DNA of 64,000 nucleotides from Selenomonadales bacterium (GTDB lineage: Bacteria > Bacillota > Negativicutes > Sporomusales > UBA7701): positions 1 to 64,000 of the forward strand of contig JARKPR010000047.1 of assembly GCA_029975165.1 (NCBI GenBank), given 5' to 3'. Below the pieces are notes generated by a model. The model made no database searches. It saw nothing but the letters and a program-made list of their open reading frames with translations, and had not been told where the DNA came from. Made by a program: the position numbers and the translations under genes. This document shows positions 25,501-28,709 of this stretch, one piece after another. Numbering within the stretch: position 1 is the stretch's first letter; the number at the start of each line of letters is the position of its first letter.

Positions 25501-26820
25501 CTACAGCCCCAAACGGCCAGCCAGCCAGTCGATCAGGCCCGGGCTCAGGGTCGACGCAATCAGCAGGACGGTGAGTCCGCTGATAAGGATGGCGAAGCTC
25601 CACGCCACCAGATTGTAAAGGGACGAATTGCGGTACTCGCCCATTATCCGCGCGTTGCTGGCAATGAGCACCATGAAAACCAGCACCGGCACGAGCAAGA
25701 TGCCGTTGACCACCTGGGTGGTCAGCATAACGTGGTAAAGCGACAGGCCGGGCCACAGCACCAGCACGGCGCTGATGACGATGATGGCCGTGTACAGGCC
25801 GAAGAACACTGGCGCGTCTTTATAAGACTTACTGATGCCCCGCTCGAAGCCGAACGCCTCGCAGATGGCGTACGCCGTGCTCAGCGGCAGGATGAACGCC
25901 GCCAGCATCGAGGCGCCGAACAGGCCGAAAGCGAACAGGAAAGAGGCATATTTGCCGGCCAGCGGCTCGAGGGCGACCGCCGCGTCCGCCGCCGTCTCGA
26001 TGGGGATATTGTTCACATGCAGGGTGGCGGCCGTCGCCACGACAATGAAAAAGGCGATCAGTCCGGTGAAAAAAGCGCCGACAAGCACGTCCCACCGCGT
26101 GTAGGCATATGTCTTGGCCGTTATCCCCTTGTCGACGATCGTCGCCTGGACGTAAAACTGGCCCCAAGGCGTTATCGTCGTGCCGATAATGCCGATGACC
26201 ATCAGCAGGAACCCCGGGCTGCGGGAAAATGTCGGCGTCGCCGCCGCCGCCATCACCTCCCGCCACGGCGGGTCGACGATGAACCCGGAGATGACGTACG
26301 AAAAGAACGTCAGGCAGAGGGCGAAAAACACCTTCTCGACCCGCGAGTAGCTGGCCTTCAGCACCAGCCGCCATACCACGAAGGCGCTGACCGGCACGGC
26401 GATGTACCTGCTGATCCCGAAGATTTCGAAGCTGGTGGCGATGCCGGAGAACTCCGACACCGTCGTGCCGATGTTGGCCACCATCAGCACCGTCATGGCG
26501 AACAGCGTCCACCTCACTCCGTAGCGCTCGCGGATGAGGTCGGACAGGCCGCGGCCGGTGACCGCCCCCGTGCGGGCGGAAATTTCCTGGACCACGGTCA
26601 GTACGAGGATGCTTATGAACAGCACGAACAACAGGCTGTACCCGTACTTGGCCCCGGCCGCGGAGTAAGTGGCGATGCCGCCGGCGTCGTTGTCGGCGAA
26701 GGCGGTGATGATGCCCGGCCCCATGACGGAAAGAAACAGGATCAGCCTTTCCCGTATTTTTTTCAGATCCAGCGCCGGCCACCTCCTTCCCCCGCTGCTT
26801 AGAAAACTTGGCTTCGCCAA
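25501..26820 (-). CDS. Nramp-related divalent metal transporter, probably Mg2+ (NRMT type)
   Basis: This is an eleven-helix LeuT-fold transporter of 439 aa or slightly less. Classical Mn/Fe Nramps carry DPGN in helix 1 and MPH in helix 6; here they read ADNDAGG and TTITPWGQ, so the metal site differs. An M-box (Mg2+) riboswitch precedes the gene. Nramp-related magnesium transporters with M-box leaders are known from Clostridia, which supports Mg2+ as substrate. The TTG at 26820 has no usable SD; AAGGAGG lies 9 bases before an in-frame CTG at 26772, which may be the true start (about 423 aa). Confidence 0.85.
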   Translation of the reverse strand: MAKPSFLSSGGRRWPALDLKKIRERLILFLSVMGPGIITAFADNDAGGIATYSAAGAKYGYSLLFVLFISILVLTVVQEISARTGAVTGRGLSDLIRERYGVRWTLFAMTVLMVANIGTTVSEFSGIATSFEIFGISRYIAVPVSAFVVWRLVLKASYSRVEKVFFALCLTFFSYVISGFIVDPPWREVMAAAATPTFSRSPGFLLMVIGIIGTTITPWGQFYVQATIVDKGITAKTYAYTRWDVLVGAFFTGLIAFFIVVATAATLHVNNIPIETAADAAVALEPLAGKYASFLFAFGLFGASMLAAFILPLSTAYAICEAFGFERGISKSYKDAPVFFGLYTAIIVISAVLVLWPGLSLYHVMLTTQVVNGILLVPVLVFMVLIASNARIMGEYRNSSLYNLVAWSFAILISGLTVLLIASTLSPGLIDWLAGRLGL

Positions 26821-26857
26821 GCCTCTTGGGCGCAGGCGGAGCCATAGTTGCCCTTAT

Positions 26858-26889
26858 GTCTAACAGAAAGTATAAACTTTCTGTTAGAC
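26858..26889. repeat. perfect 14-bp inverted repeat in the Nramp leader
   Basis: GTCTAACAGAAAGT and ACTTTCTGTTAGAC flank a 4-base loop, between the M-box terminator and the coding region. One arm (CTAACAGA) is complementary to eight bases at the 5-prime end of the aptamer (TCTGTTAG), so alternative pairing is possible. Confidence 0.7.
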
Positions 26890-26890
26890 C

Positions 26891-26924
26891 GAAAAAGAAA
26901 AACCTTCCCCGCAGGAAGGCCTTT
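26891..26924 (-). terminator. M-box expression-platform terminator
   Basis: On the minus strand GGCCTTCC-TGCGG-GGAAGG is followed by TTTTTCTTTTT. The 5-prime arm GGCCTTCC can instead pair with GGAAGGTC (26942-26949), the 3-prime strand of aptamer helix P1, giving an antiterminator when Mg2+ is low. Confidence 0.85.
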
Positions 26925-26941
26925 CGTACCGGTCAAAGTGC

Positions 26942-27107
26942 GACCTTCCCTACTCGTCGAGCTTTAGCACTGCATAACGTAGAGCACACTCCTCAGCCAC
27001 ATTAGGTAGAACCTTACGCCGGTAATACCTGTTATACCCATTGGCGTCTCTCGACGTTTCCGGGCAGTGGCCTTTGTTTATGCAGGAGCCTCACCTAACA
27101 GAGAAAT
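26942..27107 (-). promoter_or_regulatory. M-box (ykoK) magnesium riboswitch
   Basis: The minus-strand RNA carries the M-box core in order: GTTAGGTGAGGCTCCTGCAT, GGCCACTGCCCGGAAACGTC, GAGACGCCAATGGGT, AACAGGT, and the 3-prime ATGCAGTGCTAAAGCTC. P1 can form between TTCTCT and AGGGAA. High Mg2+ should stabilise P1, free the terminator arm and shut the gene off. The controlled gene is the Nramp-related transporter. Confidence 0.93.
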
Positions 27108-27125
27108 GATCGGTTTTTCTTCTTC

Positions 27126-27154
27126 ATTATATTATTCATTTTAGCAAAGGTCAA
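27126..27154 (-). promoter_or_regulatory. sigma-A promoter of the M-box/Nramp unit
   Basis: TTGACC (27149-27154) and TATAAT (27126-27131) on the minus strand are 17 bases apart; transcription would start just before the aptamer. Confidence 0.85.
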
Positions 27155-27174: not shown

Positions 27175-27840
27175 CTATTCGGGCTGTTCGGCGGTCTCGG
27201 CCCCCCGCCGGCTCTTCAGCCAGTAACCGGCGCCGACAACCCCGGCCGCGAGGGCCACCTCGATAACCAAGGCGTAGGCGGCCAGCAACGGACCGACAGC
27301 CTCGTCGCCCACCACCATCTTGGCTGCCGTCCAACCCAGGATGGCTGCCCCGATATAGATGATGACCGGGAAGCGGTCCATGAGCGTGAGGATGAGCTGG
27401 CTGCCGAAAACGACCAGCGGAATGCTCATCGCCAAGCCGATACTCAGCAGCAGCCAGCTGCCGTCAGCCACCCCGGCAATGGCGAGCACGTTGTCCAGGC
27501 TCATGATCACGTCGGCGATCAGGATGACCTTGATAGCCTCGCTCAGGCAGGATGCCTCGTGGCATTTGACCTCGCCCTTGTCGTCGGCGATAAGCTTCAC
27601 GGCAATGTAGAGCAGCGCCAGTCCGCCGGCGAACTGCAAGTAGGGAACCGTCAACAAGAAGGCGGCCACGACCGTCAGGCCGATTCTCAGCACAACCGCC
27701 CCCAGGCTTCCCCAGAAGACCGCCTTGCGGCGCTGCTCATGGGGCAGATTCCTGCTCGCCAGCGCGATAACGACCGCGTTATCGCCGCTTAAGATCAGAT
27801 TGATAAACATGATGCTCCCTAGTGCCGCCAAAAATTCCAT
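27175..27840 (-). CDS. TerC family integral membrane protein (YkoY/YjbE type), probable Mn2+ exporter
   Basis: This 221-aa TerC protein has about seven helices and the two family acidic motifs NLILSGDNAVVIAL (residues 14-27) and DVIMSLDNVLAIAG. TerC proteins of this type are implicated in Mn2+ efflux and supply to secreted enzymes. The yybP-ykoY leader directly upstream supports Mn2+ control. The ATG at 27840 follows GGGAGGTATG; the longer open frame runs into the leader. Confidence 0.9.
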   Translation of the reverse strand: MEFLAALGSIMFINLILSGDNAVVIALASRNLPHEQRRKAVFWGSLGAVVLRIGLTVVAAFLLTVPYLQFAGGLALLYIAVKLIADDKGEVKCHEASCLSEAIKVILIADVIMSLDNVLAIAGVADGSWLLLSIGLAMSIPLVVFGSQLILTLMDRFPVIIYIGAAILGWTAAKMVVGDEAVGPLLAAYALVIEVALAAGVVGAGYWLKSRRGAETAEQPE

Positions 27841-27908
27841 CGCCACATACCTCCCCGATTTTGTCCGCGGTATCCGTGCCCCTTCGTCCGCCCTTCCGGC
27901 AAACAAAA

Positions 27909-28202: not shown

Positions 28203-28709
28203 GTGTATTACGACTATGACGACGACGACTACGGTTGTGGGTGCCAGTCGATGAAATGCATGTCCAGCTGTCACTCCATGGACAGCTGCCATTCCATGAA
28301 ATGCTGTTATTCCATGAAGCCGATGTATTCCTGCCATTCCATGGATAGCTGCCATTCCATGAAATGCATGTCCTGTGCTTATTCCATGAAGTGCGCCAAA
28401 TGCATGCATAGCTGCCACTCGATGTACAGTTGCCAGTATATGAAGAGCTGCGACTATATGAAGACCTGCGAGTGTACGAAAAGCTGCGAATGCATGAAGA
28501 CCTGTGACTATCCGAAGACCTGCGAATGTATGAAGACCTGCGACTATCCGAAAAGCTGCGAGTGCATGAAGACTTGCGACTATCCGAAAACCTGCGAGTG
28601 CATGAAGACTTGCGACTACCCGAAGACCTGCGAGTATATGAAGACTTGCGACTATCCGAAAACCTGCCACTATATGAAGACCTGCCACTATATGAAAGGC
28701 TGTAAGTAG
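28203..28709 (+). CDS. extremely Cys-rich hexapeptide-repeat protein
   Basis: This 168-aa protein contains 35 cysteines (21%). Residues 1-10 are acidic and tyrosine-rich (MYYDYDDDDY). Residues 11-80 carry CHSMDSCHSMK-type repeats; residues 80-168 are a regular hexad array of KTCDYP/KTCECM type. There is no signal peptide or membrane helix. GGGAGGTG lies 6 bases before the GTG start, which fixes strand and start. No known family is recognised. It could be a spore-coat or crust structural protein, a metallothionein-like metal store, or a modified-peptide substrate. It converges on a YcaO gene 128 bp away. Confidence 0.82.
   Translation: MYYDYDDDDYGCGCQSMKCMSSCHSMDSCHSMKCCYSMKPMYSCHSMDSCHSMKCMSCAYSMKCAKCMHSCHSMYSCQYMKSCDYMKTCECTKSCECMKTCDYPKTCECMKTCDYPKSCECMKTCDYPKTCECMKTCDYPKTCEYMKTCDYPKTCHYMKTCHYMKGCK
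28440..28700 (+). repeat. in-frame 18/36-bp tandem repeats
   Basis: Units such as TGCGACTATCCGAAGACC alternate with TGCGAGTGCATGAAGACT; about fourteen hexapeptide units are present. Copies differ at silent and single coding sites, so the array is maintained rather than freshly duplicated. Confidence 0.85.

Follow-up and report, generated by a model that had tools for sequence, protein, structure and literature searches.

An M-box riboswitch directly upstream of an NRMT-clade gene in a Negativicute, and a conserved leader ORF in its relatives

The nrmT locus

We analysed a 64,000-nucleotide stretch of the genome of a Selenomonadales bacterium (hereafter the window), in which nrmT, a gene for an Nramp-family protein, is driven directly by an M-box with no gene between the two. 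The features of the locus are:

27175..27906 (-): TerC/YjbE-family membrane protein gene, upstream neighbour; context, outside the switch
27154-27126 (-): sigma-70-type promoter, TTGACC-17-TATAAT, 11 of 12 consensus bases
27109-26942 (-): M-box (Mg2+) riboswitch aptamer RF00380, 165.1 bits, E 3.9e-38
26914..26949 (-): predicted antiterminator, P1 3' strand GGAAGGTC (26949-26942) paired with terminator 5' arm GGCCTTCC (26921-26914)
26925-26897 (-): intrinsic terminator, 13-pair stem then U-tract, from stem search and fold
26799-26890 (-): interspersed repeat of about 92 bp with two hairpins, recognised from its genome copies, between terminator and Shine-Dalgarno
26788-26782 (-): Shine-Dalgarno AAGGAGG, read from the sequence
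26772-25501 (-): nrmT, Nramp-related Mg2+ transporter by homology, 423 aa, probable CTG start

An earlier sequence-only reading of this DNA had proposed a full M-box in the leader and a TTGACC-17-TATAAT promoter, and both were borne out. A covariance-model search matched RF00380 over its full length (model positions 1-169), far above the gathering score of 44, and congeners L008 and L010 have the identical -35, spacing and -10. Searching the whole 4.19-Mb genome with RF00380 returned this single M-box. The combination of M-box, promoter, terminator and Nramp ORF is real and far beyond chance. Congeners L007, L008 and L010 have the TerC/YjbE-family gene upstream of their M-box as well. Just 5' of this gene, at 27949-27907 (-), is a 20-pair hairpin with a T-rich tail, either the terminator of the preceding unit or an attenuator. 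A Cys-rich repetitive ORF of 168 aa (CMKTCDYPKTCE repeats) lies at 28203-28709 (+), opposite a low-complexity reverse frame.

The start of nrmT is probably the CTG at 26772. Congeners L008 and L010 start with GTG GAT, to which CTG GAT of the window aligns in the same frame, and the window has GCTG where the congeners have GTG, leaving CTG. A frameshift at the start was considered and dropped because of this agreement in frame, and a TTG at 26820 was rejected as the ORF start because it sits inside the repeat. The CTG may be an assembly error. The repeat has six further substantial copies in the same genome, plus one 27-bp match, and a comparison of leaders found it absent from those of congeners L007/L067, L008 and L010. 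Pairing of its arm CTAACAGA with TCTGTTAG of the aptamer, noticed by eye, was set aside, since the two arms of the repeat pair with each other. Together, the repeat and the CTG start might reduce expression; they might also point to an assembly flaw.

These same features raise the question of whether nrmT has decayed in this species, silenced by insertion of the repeat and loss of its normal start codon. One of the repeat hairpins scored as a weak terminator-like site (26823-26810), and the change from GTG to GCTG would be in keeping with such decay; however, the frame is open to its end and 88% identical to L067, the strong Shine-Dalgarno is kept and the aptamer is intact, and we consider silencing very unlikely.

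The expression platform

P1 and the terminator had been read as mutually exclusive. This did not hold, since both are present in the minimum-energy fold of the leader and therefore belong to one state; the alternatives are instead P1 and an antiterminator. The latter is a predicted duplex of eight pairs that competes with both P1 and the terminator, and it appears in the fold of a transcript truncated at the end of the terminator 5' arm. For the full leader, the fold with P1 and terminator was calculated at -76.1 kcal/mol versus -70.6 kcal/mol for the antiterminator fold, a difference of 5.5 kcal/mol. In silico, the platform thus has a terminator and, in a folded intermediate, an alternative antiterminator.

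We looked for the same arrangement across non-redundant leaders from relatives and the window. An explicit stem-plus-U-run search placed a terminator in 52 of 57, and the duplex between the P1 3' strand and the terminator arm beat shuffled sequences at p<=0.05 in 31 of those 52. The window's own duplex was not significant against shuffles (54/500), with an arm shortened by that search's definition. A previous search for hairpins in the fold of the whole downstream region found no terminator in the window and a significant duplex in 11 of 47 leaders; it joined unrelated hairpins and was replaced. As modelled by these folds, the window leader is an ordinary M-box OFF-switch design. It resembles the RF00380 leader of B. 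subtilis mgtE/ykoK in its full aptamer, terminator and antiterminator logic, but its M-box controls an Nramp-type gene rather than mgtE.

Protein family and metal site

The nrmT product matches Pfam Nramp with 322 bits. Its closest solved chain is EleNRMT (7qia; E 1e-115), with 48% identity over 406 aa, and the next, at 6e-27, carries no annotation beyond divalent metal cation transporter. The EleNRMT residues D55, G58, E133, T224, A227, W229 and Q379 correspond to D29, G32, E107, T198, T201, W203 and Q353 of the window protein. Both proteins have the same DxxG site and a Trp at the position of the first helix-6 His, but the window protein has TxxT in helix 6 where EleNRMT has TxxA; both versions fall inside the published NRMT signature, DxxG-TxxA/T (PMC8806188).

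The sequence-only reading had noted that the canonical DPGN and MPH motifs are missing, with ADNDAGG and TTITPW present, and had called these motifs unusual. The first part is correct: DAGG and TPW stand in place of the MntH-type motifs, and neither the Met ligand nor the first His of helix 6 is retained. The second is not, since D29-A-G-G32 in helix 1 and T198-T-I-T201 in helix 6 match the published signature. All 30 NRMT loci that we fetched and read, out of 49 matches in the class, have exactly DNDAGG and GTTITPW. Among the named loci, window included, NDAGG is present in 79 of 81 rows and GTT-x-x-P also in 79 of 81, counts biased by the fact that the 80 other loci were found through peptide patterns including ITAFADND and PWGQFYVQ; the class set came from a whole-protein search and is fairer in this respect. 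In a tree of 85 rows, the NRMT rows, EleNRMT and the window split from three canonical Nramps of the window's own genome with 100/100 support, and a long-branch warning affected rows of the L124 type, not the window. By sequence and phylogeny, the window protein belongs to the known NRMT clade.

Clade alone does not fix the substrate. EleNRMT of E. lenta, the experimental precedent for the protein, carries Mn2+ too (PMC8806188), and Shin et al. report that A. capsulatum NrmT, which is without an M-box, fully rescued a Mn2+ defect, whereas rescue of a Mg2+ defect needed low millimolar Mg2+ (PMC4072509). Five Nramp-family matches were found in the window's genome: nrmT, three canonical proteins carrying DPGN and MPH, and one remote relative. 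With three canonical Nramps present, Mn/Fe uptake is presumably already served. There are also two CorA matches and two MgtE_N matches, and the MgtE membrane domain had no match in this genome. That the window protein is mainly an Mn2+/Fe2+ importer, with the M-box a relic or a sensor of other divalent ions, would fit the Mn2+ results for A. capsulatum NrmT (PMC4072509) and EleNRMT (PMC8806188), but set against a near-consensus aptamer of 165 bits, the replaced Met and His and the three canonical Nramps, we consider it very unlikely. At the level of sequence, the riboswitch, clade membership, the metal-site residues and the three canonical Nramps of this genome all support the earlier assignment to magnesium.

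Distribution of M-box/NRMT pairs

Across 200 genomes of the class we found 66 M-boxes, in 52 genomes, and 49 NRMT matches, in 43 (whole-protein search, E<=1e-50; among the 49 are two fragments of a single broken gene, G054, and three distant paralogues at 32% identity). Of the 49, 32 are preceded on the same strand by an M-box no more than 2.5 kb away; the M-box is direct in 9 of these and about 1.35-1.77 kb off in 23. NRMT pairing explains 39 of the 66 M-boxes. M-box and NRMT together are common in Negativicutes, not special to the window; relatives include Sporomusa, Pelosinus and Pectinatus, and the gene is also found in Desulfosporosinus, Heliobacterium, Clostridium and Actinomycetota. Experimental precedent for M-box-NrmT comes from C. 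acetobutylicum (PMC4072509), where Ca_c0685/Ca_c3329 are NRMT-clade genes downstream of an M-box as in the window. According to Shin et al., M-box-Nramp pairs occur 'mostly in Clostridia and Deltaproteobacteria' (PMC4072509), and our literature search, which left out most subscription journals, found no published report of Negativicute cases. The suggested extension of the link to Negativicutes is real and modest, and the association is a widespread one.

Most relatives have a gene between riboswitch and transporter. An M-box reaches the Rfam threshold at 53 of the 80 named loci (some of the other 27 are cut by contig ends); an ORF of 416-466 aa intervenes in 46 of the 53, and the M-box is direct in 7. 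The window's genome encodes an MgtE_N-domain protein homologous to these intervening ORFs (36-45% identity), which agrees with the MgtE-N partner gene already reported near M-box-NrmT (PMC4072509). In the C. acetobutylicum group an MgtE N-domain gene is nearby in most members (PMC4072509), whereas the window operon has none. Six direct rows, drawn from the window's family and from a second family of the order (CTSoil_080-082), cluster as one group with 93/96 support, consistent with a single loss of the MgtE_N partner from the operon; two further direct rows, Desulfosporosinus GA and Clostridium pascui, lie elsewhere in the tree. The window genome's homologue of the partners is on contig C11 (L149) and may be the displaced nrmT partner.

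Tandem M-box aptamers were seen at L072, L076 and L078 (Pelosinus), at G010, G029, G041, G049, G060, G065 and G075, and at G017. In the three Pelosinus loci, which we read individually, the aptamers are 130-140 nt apart and 86-87% alike, and visual inspection shows a hairpin and a T-rich stretch behind each, although the stem-plus-U-run search scored no terminator after the second aptamer in L072 and L076. Two distant (32%) NRMT-like genes also lie near M-boxes, G017:C1:466567-467823, which is behind a tandem pair, and G128:C81:128189-129412; each match contains one in-frame stop.

A conserved short ORF behind the M-box of relatives

In many relatives a Shine-Dalgarno and an ORF of 20-38 codons, mostly starting MDSGP, lie between the terminator and the next gene, and many of these uORFs end directly at the mgtE_N start (TAAATG). 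M-[DEG]-x-[GDE]-P was matched in 29 of the 53 M-box loci. The loci with an M-[DE]-x-[GDE]-P uORF are:

After an M-box: L068, L072, L076, L078-L094, L096-L098, L100, L101, L114, L115, L137, L140
With no M-box called: L069, L121, L122, L138, L139

Within the 80 loci, 28 of the 121 Shine-Dalgarno-preceded starts at most 200 nt after an M-box match.[DE].[GDE]P, against 5 of 1126 such starts elsewhere on the same strand. All five of the latter belong to loci in which no M-box was called, and they lie 1.37-1.42 kb ahead of nrmT. These five and three others still gave no M-box at E<=0.1, L069 being cut by a contig end. In the class, an exact DNA pattern for the motif matched a single time in each of 19 genomes out of 200, and a reversed control pattern matched once across all 200. 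Seventeen of the 19 follow an M-box at a distance of 53-135 nt (positions compared by hand); the other two (G021, and G139 at a contig end) are about 1.39 kb upstream of nrmT. Variation in codons 3-5 falls mainly at third positions with the amino acids kept, codon 4 being GGC, GGA, GGG, GGT or GAC and codon 5 any of the four CCN, which points to a peptide rather than to RNA pairing. Short ORFs of the MDDGP type also follow the M-boxes of L032 and L034, which have no downstream NRMT match, and the peptide may thus belong to M-box units more widely.

The uORF is absent from the window and its congeners and present in G005 (L068), a member of the window's own family. At the compared start region L068 reads AAGGAGGTGG..GTGGAT, and this comparison suggests that the window's genus reuses the start site of the lost uORF for nrmT.

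A possible parallel is MgtL of enterobacterial mgtA, a leader peptide with an EPDP motif, on which ribosomes drop off at low Mg2+ and so let mgtA be transcribed (PMC11282234). As in MgtL, a very short ORF with an acidic residue 2 and Pro 5 precedes a Mg2+ transporter; some relatives read MDGDP, MEADP or MDTDP, in which [DE]-x-D-P is close to EPDP, and, at the sequence level, both motif and Shine-Dalgarno are conserved among the relatives. Unlike MgtL, the uORF sits behind an M-box, and it is lacking in the window's genus. DSGP, the reading in most relatives, contains a single acidic residue, and the analogy is therefore only suggestive. A conserved uORF of unknown role is also described behind the M-box of M. 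tuberculosis, its peptide being called specific for mycobacteria (PMC12810186).

By this analogy, the relatives' uORF may be a second Mg2+ sensor of the MgtL type. We speculate, with the odds somewhat against it, that nrmT operons of Negativicutes, Desulfosporosinus and some Clostridia have two Mg2+ sensors in series, an M-box and then a leader ORF of 20-40 codons that opens with M-[DE]-x-[GDE]-P. The nascent chain of this ORF would cause ribosome drop-off at low Mg2+ as in MgtL and so set translation of the coupled mgtE_N and/or transcription into nrmT. Caloramator and C. acidisoli would have kept the peptide alone, and the window's genus the M-box alone, perhaps with the start site of the leader ORF reused for nrmT. 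Should the uORF drive mgtE_N through coupling, ribosomes dropping off at low Mg2+ would bring mgtE_N down, not up, and any control could have either sign.

A model for the window operon

We consider, with a probability of roughly 90%, that the window holds a transcription unit which Mg2+ represses and which encodes one Mg2+ importer, a member of the NRMT clade. The analysis itself shows the aptamer, the terminator, the alternative pairing in silico, the clade and the site residues; the direction of the switch, its Mg2+ dependence, the substrate and transport are what we infer. At high cellular Mg2+ the aptamer would fold and P1 close, holding the GGAAGGTC strand, so that the terminator would form and nrmT be off. 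At low Mg2+ this strand would pair with the terminator 5' arm and RNA polymerase would read through into nrmT, whose product would admit Mg2+, and probably Mn2+, through its Met-free DxxG-TxxT site. The MgtE_N-domain gene usual between M-box and nrmT is missing from the operon in this lineage.

The locus is a real and rather standard M-box-NRMT unit, and what is particular to it is the direct M-box-nrmT arrangement, the repeat between terminator and gene, and the probable CTG start. It is a further, well-supported case of a known pairing, and its motifs, once taken for an oddity, are diagnostic of Mg2+-type Nramps. More could hang on the relatives' uORF than on the window locus itself: this short peptide start is conserved at the protein level and linked to Mg2+-transporter operons, whether or not they have an M-box. 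We see the uORF as a lead worth following; should it prove to sense Mg2+ through the ribosome, enterobacteria would not be alone in using this strategy, which would here act in series with a riboswitch.
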